A stretch of 31,922 nucleotides of DNA, from positions 1-31,922 of the IMG/VR virus record IMGVR_UViG_3300042535_000009; one strand, written 5' to 3'. This document shows, piece after piece, positions 9,977-24,241 of this stretch (positions are counted from its first letter, which is position 1; every line of letters begins with the position of its first letter). Under the pieces are notes generated by a model that did not search any database, had not been told where the DNA came from, and saw only the letters and a list, made by a program, of their open reading frames with translations. Both the position numbers and the translations under genes were made by a program. The DNA comes from a virus.

Positions 9977-12159
9977 TATCTACCGCCTTCTTGTATTGCA
10001 ATCCGTTTCAATTGCTCTGCCATATCAATAGGGTCATTAGCATACACATTGACAGTGCCAAAATAATATGTATTTCCCATTCCATTAGGATTTCTTATCG
10101 TGTCAATTAGTTTATTGTAGTCATCGCTTCGGAGTAATGCCTCGCCTTTGTTAGCGTATAGCATTGTATTATCACCAGATGCGTTACCTGTAGGTATTAT
10201 GCCGCCCTGTTCACCGTGAAAAGATTGTCCTGCGATAAGTCCGGTCTGAACTCCCGCCATTGCAAGAGTAGCTGCTGTCATCACCGCCGCAAGCGCAACA
10301 CCCGCGACACCCATCGGAGCAAAAGATGCCCACCATCCCATGACGGAAGTGGCTGCGTTAATCCATACATTAGCAATTTGCCATGTTTTATTTTCTTCAA
10401 ACTGCTTCTTTTTAATATCGGTCTCTTTCTTTTTTGCTTCGGCATTTATCGCCGCTTCTTTTTTCTTGCCTTCATCAAGTATCTGATTACGCGTCATCTG
10501 GTCTTGTTTTTCTTTTATTTGCGCTCGAATATCCGCTTCGTTCTTTTTGCCTTGTTTTGTTTCAAGGCTTCCGGTGAGTGTGTCAATTTCTCTTTGAAGT
10601 CGTTCGTTTTCAGTTTCTTCAACTACCCCCATACGTTCCATCTGTCCGGATACCCACTCATCAATCAAAGCAAGATTATTATCTTTCCAATCTGATACCA
10701 TTCGTAATTGATCGGCATAGTAATTATCCCATGCTTGTTTACCTAAGTCAAGAAATCCTGATACAGTATCAAGAAATAGAGTTCCGAACTTTTGAATATT
10801 TGATGCAACTGATTCAAACTTTTCTTGACCTGACATATTTTCCCATGTCTTATCCGCAATTTCTTTAACTTTTTTTTCTGTCTTTGTATTACTATCAACT
10901 ATAGTATCATTAGTATTTTCAACTGCTGCAACAACTTGCGGAAGTTCTTCATTCGCTTTGTTTTTTATATCTTCAAATGTTTTATTATAAATATTTTTTA
11001 TATTTTCTGCTTGAACTTTTGATTTATCCCCAAAAGTTTTTACTTCGTTAATTGCGGTATCAATCATGTCTTTTGTGTTATCAACAAAATTAGAAGCGAG
11101 ATTTCCAACTGCCGCACCTGTAGATGTTAATTGTGCCTTAACCTGATCCCATGATTTTTTTCCAGAGATAAGATCAAATAATGCTCCAAGTGATTTTCCT
11201 GCTTCAACTATAACTTTTATAAAATCAATAAAAGCAACTGCAATTGTTTTGATAAACTTAATTTGTATCACTACTGCTGCATTTATAAATTGCAATGCAC
11301 CGCCTAATAATTGCCAATGGTCTATTTTTGCCGAGCCCACTAAATCATCCCATGATTTTTTTACTGGCGCAAGATTTTTTTTGAGTTCTCCGAACGCATT
11401 CTTACCCAAATCCTGTATTATCGTTGTTATTGTTTTAAAAGTTGCTCCGATTGTTGCAACGTTATCAGTATTAGAAAGAAAATCATGTATTGAGTTTGCT
11501 CCATCCGTGAATGACTTAACAAGGTCTTTCCCTACGATAGCAACTATATTTCCGACATCTTCATATATGCTACCCTGTGCATTTTCTAATTGCATCAATG
11601 CACCTGTGAATGTATTTGCTTCGCCTTCGGCAATACGAAAACCCCTTGCCATTGCTTCATTTACAATCGCTTGCTTTTGTGTTTCATCTGTAGCCGTCTT
11701 TAATGCTGGTATATATTTTGCCAATGCATCATAATTACCTTGATACGCATTTGCGGTCATCTTCATAGCCATGTTAAGGTCAACGCCAAATGCTTTTGAT
11801 AGTCCAATAGCGTCTTTTGTCGCTTCATTTAATCGGTCTTTTGTTATACCGAGATTGGCTCCGTATTTCATCGCCGCAATTGCCGCATCGTCTTCAACTG
11901 TAGTTACCTTTTGAAGTTCTTCGGCAAACTTAATATGAGCATCAACATTACCGCCGACTGTATCCTTCAATCCCTGTAAGGCAAGTTCTCCAGCTTTGAA
12001 TTCTTCAATACCTTTTGATATAGTTTCTTTAAGAAAATTAGCGGCAATTTTCAAGCCTTCGACGGCAAGATTAGCGGCTATAATAGTTGATGTTACACCC
12101 TTGACAACCCCAGAGGCTTTATCTTTTCCTATTATCTCAAGTTCTACTTTCGTTGACAT
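9976..12159 (-). CDS. Tail tape measure protein (727 aa)
   Basis: The longest gene in the window. It has long helical stretches, an early segment typical of tape measures (KYGANLGITKDRLNEATKDA, about 98-117), a Glu/Lys-rich coiled coil (about 525-590) and a hydrophobic Ala/Gly/Met region near 605-645 that may enter the membrane during DNA ejection. By the usual rule of about 0.15 nm per residue, the tail would be near 110 nm. It overlaps the frameshifted chaperone end by 23 bases. No lysozyme or peptidase domain was seen. Context and composition make the call firm. Confidence 0.88.
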   Translation of the reverse strand: MSTKVELEIIGKDKASGVVKGVTSTIIAANLAVEGLKIAANFLKETISKGIEEFKAGELALQGLKDTVGGNVDAHIKFAEELQKVTTVEDDAAIAAMKYGANLGITKDRLNEATKDAIGLSKAFGVDLNMAMKMTANAYQGNYDALAKYIPALKTATDETQKQAIVNEAMARGFRIAEGEANTFTGALMQLENAQGSIYEDVGNIVAIVGKDLVKSFTDGANSIHDFLSNTDNVATIGATFKTITTIIQDLGKNAFGELKKNLAPVKKSWDDLVGSAKIDHWQLLGGALQFINAAVVIQIKFIKTIAVAFIDFIKVIVEAGKSLGALFDLISGKKSWDQVKAQLTSTGAAVGNLASNFVDNTKDMIDTAINEVKTFGDKSKVQAENIKNIYNKTFEDIKNKANEELPQVVAAVENTNDTIVDSNTKTEKKVKEIADKTWENMSGQEKFESVASNIQKFGTLFLDTVSGFLDLGKQAWDNYYADQLRMVSDWKDNNLALIDEWVSGQMERMGVVEETENERLQREIDTLTGSLETKQGKKNEADIRAQIKEKQDQMTRNQILDEGKKKEAAINAEAKKKETDIKKKQFEENKTWQIANVWINAATSVMGWWASFAPMGVAGVALAAVMTAATLAMAGVQTGLIAGQSFHGEQGGIIPTGNASGDNTMLYANKGEALLRSDDYNKLIDTIRNPNGMGNTYYFGTVNVYANDPIDMAEQLKRIAIQEGGR

Positions 12160-12406
12160 TGCCTTTCCTTATTTCTTCAATAATATGATAATATGTATAT
12201 CGCACATACTCCCATATAGTTATTATTTCTTCATCCTGATCATAGTATCCGCCAGATGTTGGAAGATGAATCCATTGATTCTTATCCTTATCAAGACAAC
12301 TTAACGCCTCACGTACGTAAGCATTCCATTGCAAGTAATTAATATCTGTATCTTGCGGAACGCCATGTATTATACATCTGACGGTATAGTCAATTCCGCC
12401 ATAGTC
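12137..12406 (-). CDS. Frameshifted C-terminal extension of the tail assembly chaperone (gpGT-like part, 89 aa)
   Basis: After a -1 slip on the A-AAA-AAG site, reading continues DYGGIDYTVRCIIHGVPQDT for 89 residues to a stop inside the tape measure start. The joined product is 253 residues (164 + 89). Only weak internal starts exist in this frame (a TTG in front of QWNAYVREAL), and there is no good ribosome site, which supports access by frameshifting. In lambda and many siphoviruses the longer GT-type product binds the tape measure and tube protein during tail assembly. The sequence shows the slippery site; the product itself is predicted. Confidence 0.75.
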   Translation of the reverse strand, partial: DYGGIDYTVRCIIHGVPQDTDINYLQWNAYVREALSCLDKDKNQWIHLPTSGGYYDQDEEIITIWEYVRYTYYHIIEEIRKGNVNESRT

Positions 12407-12897
12407 TTTTTTTTTAAGACAAAACTTTCAGAAAATAACCGGATTTCCTTAACTATGAACTTAATCAATTCGTCATTACCGTATTCATTCCAAAACTCAT
12501 AATTATTGACCGGAATTGTTATTCCGTCTTTTGTGAAATTATGATTGGCAGGGTTGATACACTCTTCAATAACCATTTTTTCAACCTCTGCACCAAAGTC
12601 TGATATTTTTTCCTGCTCTGTCAAATCAAACTTAACATCAATCATAATGGCGGCAATTTCTATATTATCCATCTTGTCAAAATCGTCAAGCGATTTGCCG
12701 CCCTGTGTAAGTTTCTTAATAAGTTCTTTTCCTGCCGGATTATTCATTGACGCCATTGTCATCATATATACTTTACGCTTCAATTTCAAATCCATTTTCT
12801 TGATATAAATAAATACTTCCGTATCATCTAAATCAAAAAATTGCGAAATTATAAGTTTTTTTTCGTTTTTTTCTTTCATTTTTCCAATTTCTGGCAT
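12370..12897 (-). CDS. Tail assembly chaperone, zero-frame product (gpG-like, 175 aa)
   Basis: It lies between the tube and tape measure genes, where the G/GT chaperones always sit. It is helical and acidic, with KKMDLKLKRKVYMMTMASM and two KLTQGGKSLDDFDKM-type stretches. AAGAAGGGG lies close before the ATG. Near the end, codons 161-164 read TTA AAA AAA AAG, giving an in-frame slippery heptamer; only 11 codons separate it from the zero-frame stop. The short form is probably the main product and the -1 form a minority, in the ratio needed for tail assembly. Confidence 0.8.
   Translation of the reverse strand: MPEIGKMKEKNEKKLIISQFFDLDDTEVFIYIKKMDLKLKRKVYMMTMASMNNPAGKELIKKLTQGGKSLDDFDKMDNIEIAAIMIDVKFDLTEQEKISDFGAEVEKMVIEECINPANHNFTKDGITIPVNNYEFWNEYGNDELIKFIVKEIRLFSESFVLKKKTMAELTIPSDV
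12406..12412 (-). promoter_or_regulatory. Programmed -1 frameshift site
   Basis: The heptamer A AAA AAG is in the correct zero-frame phase within a run of nine A followed by G. Five bases downstream GGCGG can pair with CCGTC (five pairs, one G-U), a possible stimulatory stem. The -1 frame opens at once into 89 codons. Confidence 0.8.
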
Positions 12898-16426: not shown

Positions 16427-16448
16427 ACGGCGGGTATTTCGCCGCCGT
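16427..16448 (-). other. GC-rich hairpin downstream of the capsid gene
   Basis: ACGGCGG (16427-16433) pairs perfectly with CCGCCGT (16442-16448) over an 8-base loop, 13 bases after the capsid stop. No U-run follows, so it is probably not an intrinsic terminator. It may protect the 3' end of the capsid mRNA. A conserved RNA downstream of Mu gpT genes (Mu-gpT-DE) has been described; whether this is a case is untested. Confidence 0.5.
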
Positions 16449-17384: not shown

Positions 17385-18227
17385 TTATGACCATATTCTA
17401 TACATAATAGCACCGTTTGCTACGAATGTAGCCGATGCGCCGCTTATGGTTGCTGTGATATACTGACCGGATGTCATCTTTCTAACCCCACCGTTTGTTC
17501 CGCCGTCAACAAGATTTGACTTTACAGACGCTACAGAGGTTTTTACACCGTCAATCAAAGTGTCCGCGCTTGCTGATGCGGTTGTAATACCTATGTCCAT
17601 TGTTGCGGCTCCGCTTGATCCAGTTGTTATATCAAGAATAAAACTCTCAACAAGACAAGTTTTTGCGGTTGGATTAACCCATGATAATGATCCGGCATTT
17701 CCTGCTGTACCAGTTACGGCTACTTTTGCAACTCTTACACCACCACCAATGCCGAGATCGTTTAAGAGAAGATAACCCGAAGTTGTTGAGATATAAGTTG
17801 TCAATGTTCCTGCTGGTACACATGCAGTACCGCTTGATACATCATCAATGGTATAGTTGTCTGTGGCGTACATTGTAGTACCTACCATTGCCTGTGTAAT
17901 TGAAGTGAAAGTCAAAAGAAATTCACCTCTAATATATACACGTCTGATTGTCTTGTCGCCTGCTACTGCCGAGCCCTCTTCCTTAGTTCCTGATATAGAG
18001 CCGTTAGCGGTTGTCGCTGCTTCACCTGTAGCATTCGCTGAATCATCGGCTACTATACCGAATATAGTTATTTCGGGGCATGCTGCCGAATCGAGATTAT
18101 ACAGATACCCGTCTTTTCCAATTCCGGCAAAAGTTCCTTGATAGATTGTCTCACCAGTTTTTACCGGGAAAGCAACTGGCTCATCTGCCCATTTGTAAGA
18201 AATTGGTTTTCTTATTGTTACTGCCAT
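17385..18227 (-). CDS. Capsid decoration-type protein (DUF2190-like N-terminus, 280 aa)
   Basis: The N-terminal half (KTGETIYQGTFAGIGKDGYL ... ITIFGIVADDSANATG) has the beta pattern of DUF2190-like proteins found between protease and capsid genes, which coat the capsid as trimers. The C-terminal half (about 165-280) is a second beta-rich domain of low complexity (Ser, Thr, Ala, Gly, Val). At 280 residues it is more than twice the usual 110-120, so it appears to be a decoration domain fused to an extra surface domain. It lies 12 bases upstream of the capsid gene. Strong expression is likely. Confidence 0.7.
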   Translation of the reverse strand: MAVTIRKPISYKWADEPVAFPVKTGETIYQGTFAGIGKDGYLYNLDSAACPEITIFGIVADDSANATGEAATTANGSISGTKEEGSAVAGDKTIRRVYIRGEFLLTFTSITQAMVGTTMYATDNYTIDDVSSGTACVPAGTLTTYISTTSGYLLLNDLGIGGGVRVAKVAVTGTAGNAGSLSWVNPTAKTCLVESFILDITTGSSGAATMDIGITTASASADTLIDGVKTSVASVKSNLVDGGTNGGVRKMTSGQYITATISGASATFVANGAIMYRIWS

Positions 18228-18743: not shown

Positions 18744-19376
18744 TTTTAACCCCTTAGTTAATTTTATTTGTTCCTGTACAGTTTGAAGAACGCCTTCAAA
18801 TGCAGGTATATTTGTTAATGTTACCGCCCATAATACATTTTTATGAAGTACTTTATCCGTGTCTACTCTATCTCCCCACTCCGGAGATATGTAAGAATAC
18901 TTATTGCCCTTAATTAGATCGTGCCCTGTTTCATTCAATTCAATACGTCCATACAATCCATCTTTTTCAATTTTCAATTCTGTAATGTCTGCGATTTTTT
19001 CTTCTAATTTGTGATTGATGTCCATATACGGTTTAAAAAGTTTTTCTGATTGAAATGATAGTATTACTTGATTAAAAAAGTTATCATCAAAGACAAAATA
19101 ATCATTATACTTCTCAAAAAAATACTTTCCTTTTGGAAATATCTTAAGCCATTGATTTTTTTCAAGGCTGGCATTAAGTTTCCAGAATGATTTTTTCAAC
19201 GGTTGATTTGAATCGTCCATTCCTATAGTGATGGATTGAAGTAATCCTTCAAGAACATTATCGGCGATCTTATATCCGTTTTTTTCAATATTCTTTTTGA
19301 ACTCCGCAAGTAATTCTAATTTATTTTTTGTTTTCGGGGCTTCGGTTGGTTGTGTCGGCTGTATAATATCACCCAT
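18231..19376 (-). CDS. Head maturation protease with scaffold domain, Mu gpI-like (381 aa)
   Basis: The protease part shows the Mu gpI pattern: PYMDINHK with H122, a strand-rich segment GLYGRIELNETGHDLI (140-155), SYISPEWGD (161-169) with the likely catalytic Ser, and LTNIPAF (187-193). From about 212 on the protein is helical and charged, like the scaffold region of gpI/Z. Such serine proteases remove scaffold during head maturation. The AUG stands seven U after an SD (GGAGGUG) that is part of a 14-bp hairpin, so synthesis is probably regulated. An internal start could make scaffold alone. The N-terminal 100 residues are longer than usual. Confidence 0.82.
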   Translation of the reverse strand: MGDIIQPTQPTEAPKTKNKLELLAEFKKNIEKNGYKIADNVLEGLLQSITIGMDDSNQPLKKSFWKLNASLEKNQWLKIFPKGKYFFEKYNDYFVFDDNFFNQVILSFQSEKLFKPYMDINHKLEEKIADITELKIEKDGLYGRIELNETGHDLIKGNKYSYISPEWGDRVDTDKVLHKNVLWAVTLTNIPAFEGVLQTVQEQIKLTKGLKMEDLKSRSIKLEGKLSGYNLASDPTSIPTIDPNVLMEAVAMLKEAIMKIDELTGQTQEQAEEIAAQKISITSMNKEKEEKEIEDFFSESVKTGKIDVSEVEDMKELFRLNKDKVKSIIAGRKEKVNIQMTNSFSNAGYKLTSEDYFIMEQQGYDRNDPKDVAAYLKAIKE

Positions 19377-19473
19377 AAAAAAACACCTCCTACATTATTT
19401 CTAATGCAAGAGGTGCTGAAAGGAATCTTTCGCCTCCGCGATCGTCTACCGTTTGGCGGTCTCCGCTCGGTAG
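19377..19473 (-). ncRNA. Structured leader RNA of the head protease gene (attenuator-like)
   Basis: In minus-strand RNA: stem A, CTACCG (19468-19473) with CGGTAG (19446-19451), encloses GCGG/CCGC. Stem C is GAAAG/CTTTC (19418-19431) and can be extended by GAGG (19433-19436) with CCTC (19410-19413). Stem D is a 14-bp hairpin with a GAAA loop (19384-19415) followed by seven U and the protease AUG. D looks like an intrinsic terminator and its 3' arm is the protease Shine-Dalgarno site. C and D share CCTC and exclude each other. This is the layout of an attenuator or riboswitch; the sensed signal is unknown, and I recognise no known class. Up to 19486 nothing else is seen. Confidence 0.65.
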
Positions 19474-19486
19474 TCCTGTTTCATTG

Positions 19487-19642
19487 TCAAGAACTCAAGT
19501 TTTGATTTGTCCGCGAGTCCTTAATGTTCACATTTTTTACTCTGGCATTCAAATCAATAATATACCTGCCAGTTGTTAGATTAGAACTTTCCGCTAATTT
19601 GAGAAATTCTTTTTTCAAATTGCTTACTATTTTCTTATCCAT
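19487..19642 (-). CDS. Small hypothetical protein before the leader RNA (51 aa)
   Basis: MDKKIVSNLKKEFLKLAESS..., a basic protein with an amphipathic helix at about 5-19 and a strand-like middle (GRYIIDLNARVKNVNI). AAGGATGT lies before the ATG at good spacing. It ends just before the structured leader of the protease gene, so it could be a regulator or leader peptide of that element, though it is longer than usual leader peptides. Function unknown. Confidence 0.5.
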   Translation of the reverse strand: MDKKIVSNLKKEFLKLAESSNLTTGRYIIDLNARVKNVNIKDSRTNQNLSS

Positions 19643-19726: not shown

Positions 19727-19999
19727 TCATACCATACCCCTTAGTTTTTCAAGCTTTTCCTCTGTCTCTTTTCTGATTTTCTTGATTTCTTCTTCTTTTT
19801 CTTGGTTAATTTTCATCAATGCAATAGCGTATTGTTTGTCGAGGTTTTTTTTCAATGCATCCATTTTTTCAGGCGTAACCGCTCCCTCAACTCTATCAGT
19901 TACCCATTTTGACGCCTGTCTTTTTGCAATGAATACCGCCGATGAAAAAAGAAAAATCATTCCAAAAAGAAAACCTATAATCAATAATAATATTTCCAT
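19727..19999 (-). CDS. Membrane-anchored coiled-coil protein in the head module (90 aa)
   Basis: An N-terminal membrane segment (about 3-25, ILLLIIGFLFGMIFLFSSAV) is followed by a charged helix ending in EKEEEIKKIRKETEEKLEKL (68-87), a clear coiled coil. It sits between the portal and protease genes, where Mu-like phages sometimes carry small extra genes. The layout resembles an i-spanin, but it is in the head region and the lysis cassette already has a candidate. It could also be an assembly factor at the membrane. Function unresolved. Confidence 0.6.
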   Translation of the reverse strand: MEILLLIIGFLFGMIFLFSSAVFIAKRQASKWVTDRVEGAVTPEKMDALKKNLDKQYAIALMKINQEKEEEIKKIRKETEEKLEKLRGMV

Positions 20000-20008
20000 G
20001 TATGTTCC

Positions 20009-21979
20009 TTAATATAATTTATATGGCGCTATTTGACATCTGCAATTATCAGATCCGAGACATGCCGGATTAACTCTACCTCTTCCAATGTTCAACCCCT
20101 CGCTGTCAAGTTCTTTCTTCGTGAAAGTCAAATTGTCGTATGGTGCGCATTCATCGCAAAGGCTTTTATCAAGTATTGCCGTACAAATGTATTCCTCAAT
20201 AACTTCTTCGCTTGCCTTAAGAGCCTCTCCCCTGCCCTCCGTATACCCATCCTCGACTGCCTGAAATAAGTTTCGCTTATCACCTTTAAATGAGTCCTCA
20301 AAACCCATTACTATTTCATTCACTGACTTCTTTTCAAGGTTGGTCTTTTCAAGTTTATCCTCAATTATAGATTGTATATTGAAAAAAAACTTGTCAGTCA
20401 TGCGCTTGATTGATTTGTTTATAGGTGCTATTTTTGGAGTATCTGCAAGTTTGAAATCCTTTTTCAATTTTGCAAGTTCACTATTTACGTCAGAATATCC
20501 GCGTTGCCAAAGTTTTGCATATAGGCTTGTAAGTTTTGTGACCATTTCAGTTTTATATTCTTGCTTAATCTGAAAGTTAGTCTTTCCACTTTCCTGCAAA
20601 TATCCAGCGACTTGCGATAATGCTCTTACGTATATATCTTGTAATATTTTTTGACTTTCTTCCTGTGCTTCAATATATCCCTCTGTCGCACTTTCCATGC
20701 TGAATACTTCAAGTTCAAACTTTGTAGCCTCTCGGCTTTTCTTCTCGGCTTTCTTAGTTCCCTGTATTACAGATGTATCAACATCAACAATCGGCATTCC
20801 GAATATCTCACGAAAGTATTTTTCATCTTCAGGATTTTTCTGAAATATCATCGAGTCATACATATTACGCATGGTTTGAGATAATTTGAATGTATCAATT
20901 TGTGTGATACTATTGAACTTTAAGACCGGATTTTCTGTAAGATTAGCCCACGGAGTATTAGAAAGTATTACATCATTTAACTGTGCTATATTATCTTCGA
21001 GCACACGCAAAATATAATTTGCCTGTAATTCATACGGTGCTTGATGCGCTTCTGTCGCGGCTCTGCTTCCATTCTGACCAATGCCGGATGTAGAAAACTC
21101 GAGCATCATGCCAAAAAACAACTCACGATTGAAAAACTCTAACAATGGCATGTTGTCCTTTTGTCCTTTAAGCTCTTCAAGCCTTACATTCATCATATCT
21201 TTGTTATATGATATATAGCCGTTTTGCATTGCTGTAATTGTTTGTCCGATTGTTTCAATTCCTGATTGGTCGGATGATGACGGAGTGCCTATCGTCTCAA
21301 TAATCGGTATACCTGCGCCTCTCTGACATGCCCGGACGATTGCAAGCAAGCATTTTTCCTTAGCATCATAAGCCATTGTAAGAGGTCTCAATATTGATTT
21401 TCCTCTTACGTCATTATATTCCATGTTGTATGTAAGCCAGTGTAATACTTGCGTTATGTCGCTTACTGTATCACCTTCCTTAATTTCAACTAATGATGAA
21501 GCACCTTCCGGTATTCTATTTTCATGCTGAATGCCTATGAAGTCGCCATATTCATTATAATAGAACTTTTGAATTGTTTCATTTTGAAAGAAGTTAATTT
21601 TGAACAATCTATTGACAATCTTTCTATTCCATTTATCGCCTTTCGTCCATAGCAATTCACCCATTGACAAGCCATTGAATACAGCCTGCAATAGATGATA
21701 CTTAACGGATTGAAAGTCAAGATTACTCCATACGTAATCAAGATAATCCGCCGCTTCCTGATTTTCCGGTGTATGTTCTATTCTATATTCTGTTTGCAAT
21801 ACTGGCATGACAAGTAAGTTAGAGCATCTCGATATTATAGGCTCTCCATTTCTCATTCTCATGTATGTTTCTTGCTGCTCTTGCCATGACCTATCGTCAA
21901 AATCTGATCTTTGTATATCTCCGGCTGTGATATATATTCCGCTGTTTGTTATAGGTTTGTCTTTTCTGAACTTAGGCAT
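20009..21979 (-). CDS. Portal protein (DUF935 / Mu gp29-like) fused to a MuF-like C-terminal domain (656 aa)
   Basis: Residues about 1-410 fit the Mu gp29 portal class, with RSWQEQQETYMRMRNGEPII near the start, NDVRGKSILRPLTMAYDAKE and a FSTSGIGQNGSRAATEAHQA segment. About 430-656 is helical and ends in CDECAPYDNLTF ... GRVNPACLGSDNCRCQI, a Cys-rich end known from MuF-type minor head proteins and portal-MuF fusions. In Mu itself gp29 and gp30 (F) are separate. The portal is the dodecameric gate for DNA; the MuF part faces the inside or neck. AGGAGGCAAT precedes the ATG. Confidence 0.85.
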   Translation of the reverse strand: MPKFRKDKPITNSGIYITAGDIQRSDFDDRSWQEQQETYMRMRNGEPIISRCSNLLVMPVLQTEYRIEHTPENQEAADYLDYVWSNLDFQSVKYHLLQAVFNGLSMGELLWTKGDKWNRKIVNRLFKINFFQNETIQKFYYNEYGDFIGIQHENRIPEGASSLVEIKEGDTVSDITQVLHWLTYNMEYNDVRGKSILRPLTMAYDAKEKCLLAIVRACQRGAGIPIIETIGTPSSSDQSGIETIGQTITAMQNGYISYNKDMMNVRLEELKGQKDNMPLLEFFNRELFFGMMLEFSTSGIGQNGSRAATEAHQAPYELQANYILRVLEDNIAQLNDVILSNTPWANLTENPVLKFNSITQIDTFKLSQTMRNMYDSMIFQKNPEDEKYFREIFGMPIVDVDTSVIQGTKKAEKKSREATKFELEVFSMESATEGYIEAQEESQKILQDIYVRALSQVAGYLQESGKTNFQIKQEYKTEMVTKLTSLYAKLWQRGYSDVNSELAKLKKDFKLADTPKIAPINKSIKRMTDKFFFNIQSIIEDKLEKTNLEKKSVNEIVMGFEDSFKGDKRNLFQAVEDGYTEGRGEALKASEEVIEEYICTAILDKSLCDECAPYDNLTFTKKELDSEGLNIGRGRVNPACLGSDNCRCQIAPYKLY

Positions 21980-22818: not shown

Positions 22819-22955
22819 TTCTTCTTTTGCTCCATAAAGTTTTTTAATATATTTTTCTTCAAATCATAATAATGAGTAAAGCACAATGGATATTTCATAC
22901 CTAACATCTTGATAATATCAATAGCCTTTTTTTCACACAAAAAACAAGTTTTCAT
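22815..22955 (-). CDS. Small zinc-finger-like protein between terminase and Rossmann-like gene (46 aa)
   Basis: Cys4-x2-Cys7 (CFLC) and Cys25-x2-His28 (CFTH) are spaced for one zinc site. The rest is basic and helical (YYDLKKNILKNFMEQKKK). The ATG overlaps the terminase stop and the stop overlaps the next start, both as ATGA, so it is locked into the packaging operon. It may be a DNA-binding partner in packaging; not recognised in known phages. Confidence 0.6.
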   Translation of the reverse strand: MKTCFLCEKKAIDIIKMLGMKYPLCFTHYYDLKKNILKNFMEQKKK

Positions 22956-24241
22956 AACTTCATCCTTGTATTAATATTGACCGCCTTGACAAACATTCCA
23001 CCTTCGGATTTGTACAACTCGCGTAAAATCGAAGCAAGGCTATCCGGCGCATCAATCAATCCCCCGCCTTCCTGATAATATACAATTTGTTCTAAGTATT
23101 CCGGTTGACAATCATCTGCAAAAAACAAACGGGGCGACAACTTATGAATCCAATGTGTTATTTTATAATGTTTGTTCTCTTTTTCATTGATCGCCCTCGT
23201 CAATGGGAATCTTTTGTTTATTTCACCATGTGACAGTCCATGATCGCCATTCGCTTCACAGTATAGCATAATACAGTTGTATTGACTACATATATCTACA
23301 ATTTTTTGATATAGATTTGTAATGTTTTCACGCCATACGAAGCCCTTAATGGTTATAGTTTTATCAGGATTTTCTTCAAGCAATGTCAAAGCCGTTGTAC
23401 AGTCGCCAGAATAAGCAGGATCCAGATACGCACTACAAGTGAGTTTTTCATCCCATGCCTTGAACTTAGGCTCAATCAACTGATCGCTATCGGCTATATG
23501 CTGTAGTAGATAGTTTGCGGCGTATAGACTATTTCCGTTTGTTTTTCTTAATTCCGCTATGATTTCAGGCGTAAAATCTGGATCATCAACGCTTCCAATC
23601 GGGTATTTTCTCGGCTCCGGTAGTATTGTAAAAGCATCATCTCTATGCCAAGGTGTACCTGTTGCGATTATAGTTCCTCCGACGGTCTTAATATTTGATA
23701 ATTCCCTTATATAATTCTTTGTACTTTCTCTTTCTGCAGGCGAATATCGGTCTTTTTCAGTAACTATATCGTCTATACAAATCTTGTCAAAATGGGCACC
23801 GGTTATATTACCGCCTTTTCCATATGCCTCAATATTGAACTCTTTTGATATCCGGACCTTAGTCGGTAGGTTAATACGCTTTTGATTCCAGTCTGTCAAC
23901 TCAAAAGGGGTATTAAATACCTCGCTATAAATGTATTTCAACTTTTCAGATAGGTAATGTCTGGTAATTTCCTGTAATATACTTATTGCTCCAGTTTCAC
24001 TTTTACGTATAATTGCAATAAGTGTATCCGGAAAGTATAATAACCTCCATATCGTTCCAACTACTAATATCGACGTGGTTTTCTTGCTATTCCTATACGC
24101 CTGTAGAGTTACGTCCGTATCTGAAAGCCAGCATTTTTTAATCCAGTCATTATGATGTTTCATTAATTTATCATAGCCGAGTATATGCCCTAAGATAATA
24201 GGATTTTCCGCTATGTCATCAATAAGGACTTTGTTAATCAA
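22952..24241 (-). CDS. terL: Terminase large subunit (429 aa)
   Basis: The ATPase part has an unusual Walker A-like segment (AYRNSKKTT, about 48-56), Walker B ICIDD (154-158) and the coupling motif ATGTPW (193-198). The nuclease part shows AYLDPAYSGD (271-280, Asp274), YCEANGD (327-333, Glu329) and DAPDS (397-401), the RNase-H-like metal residues. It pumps DNA into the head through the portal and cuts it. Length is typical of compact TerL. It follows the small-subunit candidate with a four-base overlap. The Walker A lacks the usual Gly before Lys-Thr. Confidence 0.92.
   Translation of the reverse strand: MINKVLIDDIAENPIILGHILGYDKLMKHHNDWIKKCWLSDTDVTLQAYRNSKKTTSILVVGTIWRLLYFPDTLIAIIRKSETGAISILQEITRHYLSEKLKYIYSEVFNTPFELTDWNQKRINLPTKVRISKEFNIEAYGKGGNITGAHFDKICIDDIVTEKDRYSPAERESTKNYIRELSNIKTVGGTIIATGTPWHRDDAFTILPEPRKYPIGSVDDPDFTPEIIAELRKTNGNSLYAANYLLQHIADSDQLIEPKFKAWDEKLTCSAYLDPAYSGDCTTALTLLEENPDKTITIKGFVWRENITNLYQKIVDICSQYNCIMLYCEANGDHGLSHGEINKRFPLTRAINEKENKHYKITHWIHKLSPRLFFADDCQPEYLEQIVYYQEGGGLIDAPDSLASILRELYKSEGGMFVKAVNINTRMKL

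Follow-up and report, generated by a model that had tools for sequence, protein, structure and literature searches.

How can a phage express its head maturation protease from a gene whose start codon directly follows what looks like a transcription terminator? This question is raised by the Mu-like head module of IMG/VR virus record IMGVR_UViG_3300042535_000009, a 31.9-kb record whose whole stretch of 31,922 nt is referred to here as the window. The module lies on the minus strand, where the portal gene is followed by two small ORFs and then by a 110-nt gap ahead of the protease gene; the hairpin element is contained in this gap (Table 1).

Table 1. Head module genes and elements of the portal/protease junction in the window
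Feature	Position	Strand	Evidence or remark
Terminase	22952-24241	minus	phrog_38, E 1.9e-47
Mu-like portal protein	20009-21979	minus	PF06074, E 5.4e-19; last gene ahead of the variable stretch
90-aa ORF	19727-19999	minus	hydrophobic N-terminus and charged C-terminus; absent from L266
51-aa ORF	19487-19642	minus	no assigned function; absent from L266
Micro-ORF MKQDYRAETAKR, predicted	19446-19484	minus	AUG two bases past the stop of the 51-aa ORF
5′ domain	19418-19486	minus	fold predicted to resemble a three-way junction; island of high G+C (0.50-0.60 over 50-nt windows)
GGAGG, possible anti-terminator	19433-19437	minus	complementary to CCUCU in the 5′ arm of the hairpin; chance-level pairing
Hairpin AGCACCUCUUGCAUUA-GAAA-UAAUGUAGGAGGUGUU	19382-19417	minus	predicted fold; intrinsic-terminator-like, 3′ arm contains the Shine-Dalgarno sequence
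Shine-Dalgarno AGGAGG of the protease gene	19386-19391	minus	wholly within the hairpin 3′ arm, paired
U7 tract	19377-19383	minus	sequence; directly ahead of the AUG
Protease AUG	19374-19376	minus	
Mu-like head maturation protease, 381 aa	18231-19376	minus	PF10123, E 2.3e-10; phrog_328, E 9.6e-18; 44% to L266
G+C-rich stable hairpin	16427-16448	minus	follows gpT, ahead of the next gene; lacks a U tract on the minus strand
Structural protein, head module		minus	phrog_1731
Major head protein gpT, head module		minus	PF10124

A terminator-like hairpin carries the ribosome-binding site of the protease gene

The AUG that follows the U7 tract is very probably the real start of the protease gene, since there is no other in-frame start upstream of the KLELL(A/S)EFKK block, which is conserved with L266, the one close relative of the window described below. 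No base separates the U tract from this AUG. The hairpin that precedes it has a GAAA (GNRA) loop and 15 pairs in the minimum-energy fold (16 according to a terminator scan), and folds at -22 kcal/mol, a value that none of 1000 dinucleotide shuffles reached. No other 45-nt segment on either strand of the window has so low an energy; a 113-nt segment gave a z score of -5.98, with 0/200 shuffles as low. The element has the make-up of an intrinsic terminator, i.e. a stable G+C-containing stem-loop followed by a U-rich tract. An earlier note on this DNA had described, between positions 19377 and 19486, a textbook terminator with a 14-bp GNRA stem and seven U, ending at the protease AUG and with the Shine-Dalgarno (SD) site in its 3′ arm. 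The position, the terminator shape, the loop, the seven U and the overlap with the SD all hold, on the minus strand; the stem, however, has 15 bp rather than 14.

Few genes start in this way. Stems of at least 9 pairs that run into a T-rich tract at a start codon preceded by an SD were found at only 4 of 6370 starts (SD-preceded ORFs of at least 80 codons in 4.4 Mb; many of the loci are related, making this a descriptive count). The stem of the window is the longest of the four and the only one at an ATG. We consider the fusion of a terminator with the SD ahead of the head protease gene to be well supported.

The stretch between the portal and protease genes is variable

Protein scans identified a single close relative of the window, L266, which is collinear with it (58% for gpT, 43% for the portal protein, 44% for the protease and 48% for the tail tube). 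Two more scans with alignments of window and L266 proteins returned L266 again and no others, and no single-protein relatives of the protease and portal were found in viral_contigs. The portal stop of L266 overlaps the protease start by one base (TAATG), its portal/protease junction has neither small ORFs nor a hairpin, and its protease is longer than that of the window by about 42 residues at the N-terminus. The absence of the small ORFs and the hairpin from L266 defines the 632 nt between the portal and protease genes (20008-19377) as a variable stretch; since there is only one relative, an insertion into the window cannot be distinguished from a loss in L266. With no other close homologue in the collections searched, the element itself is represented by a single sequence for any analysis of covariation. 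The 276-aa protein without assigned function that is encoded between the terminase and portal genes of the window, in single copy, occurs in L266 as a tandem pair (positions 1-765 and 797-1627; 34% and 36%).

The terminase has a different affinity. Its nearest relative is found in a Leptospirales MAG prophage (44%), and the nearest named phages are Leptospira LE3 and LE4. Many loci with terminase relatives were found, but none had the Mu-like head genes of the window. We conclude that the phage is a mosaic; for the same reason, these loci are of no use for covariation analysis.

At the start of the variable stretch, 9 bases separate the portal stop from the 90-aa gene, whose SD lies within the end of the portal gene, a layout in which the two genes look co-transcribed. 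Upstream of the hairpin, 3 sigma-70-like sites were found vs. 2.6 expected. No upstream ORF translated into the hairpin was seen among the frames of the window: the micro-ORF stops at a UAG at 19446, inside the 5′ domain, and the next stop in its frame lies within the hairpin. Stop-codon recoding of the two UAGs in the frame entering the hairpin was considered but is not supported, because UAG terminates 3 of 33 genes.

The frame MKQDYRAETAKR-UAG-TIAEAKDSFQHLLH has a G+C content of 0.52/0.31/0.72 at the three codon positions, a contrast matched by 11/5000 shuffles, and no protein match. The G+C-rich island that it spans (19484-19398, minus strand) is interrupted by the UAG and differs in periodicity from the phage genes (0.42/0.35/0.28); it is possibly the remnant of a foreign gene end. 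A further, overlapping ORF of 32 aa, MRNIIEKIIKIIKILLDKFSKKCKDVIKWIRK (19725-19627, minus strand), would encode a cationic amphipathic helix-like peptide. It has a weak Pfam match to PSMalpha (E 0.0055; 17.1 bits, under the cut-off of 23).

The alternative pairing in the leader is at chance level

Transcription attenuators and riboswitches exist in which the terminator also hides the SD. The window resembles them in that a single hairpin combines terminator stem and SD, and that an upstream pairing may compete with it. The earlier note had gone further, proposing that an upstream GAGG takes the CCTC of the hairpin, that a nested stem-loop forms an aptamer-like 5′ part, and that two exclusive folds switch both transcription and translation. 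Part of this is seen in the predicted folds. As long as the 3′ arm is missing, GGAGG (19437-19433) is predicted to pair with CCUCU (19413-19409) with a mean probability of about 0.8, and this alternative is the minimum-energy fold in every sampled prefix ending at 19403-19395. However, when the upstream part was shuffled, 270 of 1000 sequences paired as well, so the pairing is not above chance. Nor does it survive completion of the 3′ arm: when forced on the full-length RNA, the alternative fold has an energy of -36.6 vs. -46.8, about 10 kcal/mol worse than the terminator fold. Folding of both states, a check that the note had suggested, thus favors the alternative in the prefixes and the terminator in the full RNA. 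The nested stem-loops of the 5′ domain are likewise present in the predicted fold, but 34/1000 shuffles of those 69 nt were equally stable, and the computed stability of the putative aptamer is marginal.

An Rfam scan gave no family, riboswitch or other, at gathering score, and at a loose E-value only chance-level matches to eukaryotic non-riboswitch families (snoR13 and mir-471). A structure model built from the single window sequence entered twice (R1) was used in a covariance-model search of 1.94 Mb of related loci and found no second copy, the best other match having an E-value of 0.3. A DNA similarity search of the element against phages and plasmids returned only matches with E-values of 1 or more, and the pattern of the 5′ stem had no match in viral_contigs. 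Compared to SD-hiding attenuators and riboswitches, therefore, the window has no recognized ligand-binding core, no match to a known family, no aptamer conserved among relatives and no exclusive pairing above chance. With neither an Rfam family nor a homologue, and with the element absent from L266, the suggestion of riboswitch-like control is not well supported.

Mu and spirochaete prophages have hairpins at the same gene border

The lys transcript of phage Mu may end at the border between genes G and I, although a phrase search found no statement to this effect in any of the papers listed. The Mu GenBank record (AF083977) contains a TransTermHP-predicted terminator at 17908-17953, a late promoter at 17977-18043 and the protease gene I from 18056, as well as a further TransTermHP terminator after the capsid gene. 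The stem of the G/I terminator folds at -18.1 kcal/mol. Ahead of gene I lies the C-dependent late promoter P_I (PMC4461284). In the Mu-like Pseudomonas phage Fc02, RNA-seq resolved the packaging/lysis and structural genes as separately timed clusters, and the structural cluster appears to be limited by a Rho-independent terminator, on a side that the relevant passage leaves unstated (PMC9936078).

The window is like Mu in having a terminator-like hairpin between the packaging/portal genes and the protease and capsid genes, and in having a second hairpin past the major head gene, which lacks a U tract in the window and is a predicted terminator in Mu. The two differ in spacing: the Mu terminator ends 103 nt ahead of the AUG and the promoter lies between them, whereas the U tract of the window touches the AUG. 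Since, in addition, the 3′ arm is the SD, no promoter fits between terminator and AUG in the window. The window element resembles, in a compact form, the stop signal found at this gene border in Mu.

Hairpins were also found over the protease start in spirochaete prophages. A set of 392 genomes from the phylum to which a Leptospirales MAG belongs included 15 with gpT relatives. The protease was found in 10 loci, and in 6 of these its start is covered by a hairpin and T7, the loop of the hairpin containing the start codon. When one spirochaete family was searched, the protease was found in 8 of 195 genomes; all eight (L347-L354) have a 10-12-bp hairpin and T7 over the protease start, again looping out the start codon, and in each locus the hairpin lies some 1.5 kb from one of the ends. 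Across these 8 sequences, 3 of 12 pairs have changed on both sides, in 7 cells in all, a result reached by 0/500 shuffles, but it should be noted that the count of such pairs alone was reached by 49/500 and that relatedness inflates such counts. Pairing was kept in 98.9% of cells vs. 92.4% in the shuffles, with slid controls lower. Only the 3′ arm of this hairpin is translated; the 5′ arm, which is not, has thus kept pace with it.

A structure model of this hairpin (R2) gave one match in each of the 8 genomes, always at the protease start and with an E-value of at most 1.8e-9 (next best there, 0.003), and no hairpin match in 2 other genomes. The spirochaete hairpin and the window element both run into a T7 tract and both lie where translation of this protease family begins. 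They differ in that the spirochaete start codon is in the loop, the 3′ arm and U tract there are coding and the sequence is unrelated, whereas the U tract of the window precedes the AUG. Since R2 matched the window with an E-value of only 0.87, the two elements share location and type, but homology between them is not demonstrable.

In a wider survey, a terminator-like hairpin was found at 11 of 125 protease junctions, the window included, vs. 61 of 2000 random 240-nt segments from the same loci. The other 114 junctions had no such hairpin by the survey rule, which set start codons mechanically and missed the spirochaete loci L257-L259, where the hairpin is present. The earlier note had regarded control at this point of a late operon as unusual; the terminators at the same border in Mu and the spirochaete prophages weaken that view.

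A proposed static terminator at the packaging/capsid border

The best explanation, to which we would give about an even chance of being correct, is that the element is a static intrinsic terminator or attenuator at the packaging/capsid border, fused to the ribosome-binding site of the protease gene. In its favor are the hairpin itself, far from chance and followed by U7, the hairpins at this border in Mu and the spirochaete prophages, the survey of junctions and the separate timing of the Fc02 clusters. On one side of the terminator would be the packaging genes (from terminase to portal, along with the variable 632-nt stretch) and on the other the genes for the protease, the structural protein and gpT, and its form would be so compressed that 3′ arm and U tract double as the protease ribosome-binding site. 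RNA polymerase arriving from the packaging genes would mostly halt at the hairpin, and in any read-through RNA the same hairpin would mask the SD, keeping expression of the protease and downstream genes low unless late transcription passes the site. Passage could be achieved by an antiterminated or high-flux polymerase, or from a promoter just upstream, and no ligand would be required. Three steps of this scheme are inferred, namely termination at the hairpin, masking of the SD in vivo and release of the block through late transcription. If the hairpin works in this way, a Mu-like phage would regulate its packaging/capsid border through a merged terminator and ribosome-binding site, with no promoter between terminator and gene. 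The covarying protease-start hairpin of unrelated spirochaete prophages suggests that this border has repeatedly attracted RNA-level control, which raises the testable question of how Mu-like phages time their assembly protease.

Some of the data fit a static terminator less well, namely the lack of a hairpin at most surveyed junctions and in L266, the lack of room, in contrast to Mu, for a promoter between terminator and AUG, and the near-expected number of promoter-like sites upstream. Furthermore, an essential gene whose SD is closed in a 15-bp stem should be almost silent until something opens the stem, and a static element by itself offers no account of this. Candidate openers would be an upstream promoter or antiterminated polymerase combined with breathing of the stem, a bound protein, or translation of the leader. 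This need for an opener keeps alive, at low probability, a regulated two-state switch (a riboswitch, protein-bound leader or leader-peptide attenuator) in which GGAGG takes CCUC and frees terminator and SD together. The preferred fold of the prefixes, the somewhat elevated stability of the 5′ domain, and a micro-ORF that starts just past the upstream stop and ends inside this domain all speak for a switch; the chance-level pairing, its energetic cost in the full RNA, the lack of an Rfam match or of a homologue for covariation and the absence of the element from L266 make it unlikely. An RNA gate on capsid building strikes us as rather improbable. Here, the one hairpin would be both terminator and SD lock, and events in the leader would open it, whether anti-terminator pairing, the binding of a virion protein or re-initiation at the micro-ORF, so that the protease and capsid genes would be expressed only while translation of the packaging genes was already under way.

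Moron cassettes of tailed phages are extra small genes of the late operon that end in a terminator, and the hairpin could be the end of such a cassette between portal and protease, its overlap with the SD being accidental. Extra small genes followed by a terminator are indeed what the window has, and they are missing from the collinear L266 with its longer protease. Against this, the cassette has no evident promoter of its own and its 90-aa gene looks co-transcribed with the portal gene, terminators stand at the same border in Mu and spirochaete prophages where no such cassette is known, and a single relative does not separate insertion from deletion; we regard a cassette as unlikely, though it deserves some weight. 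A purely post-transcriptional role, as an SD-hiding hairpin, RNA thermometer, RNase III site or stability element of a single late mRNA, would account for the complete enclosure of the SD in so stable a stem. The U7 directly after the stem would not be needed for such a role and fits termination, and a perfect 15-bp stem of this energy is too stable for a typical thermometer, which leaves this role quite improbable.

Other features of the window

A tRNA search gave no hits. Ahead of the tape measure gene, the frame at 12370-12897 and an open frame at 12140-12427 (minus strand) overlap, and both are conserved in L266; they look like a tail-chaperone frameshift pair.
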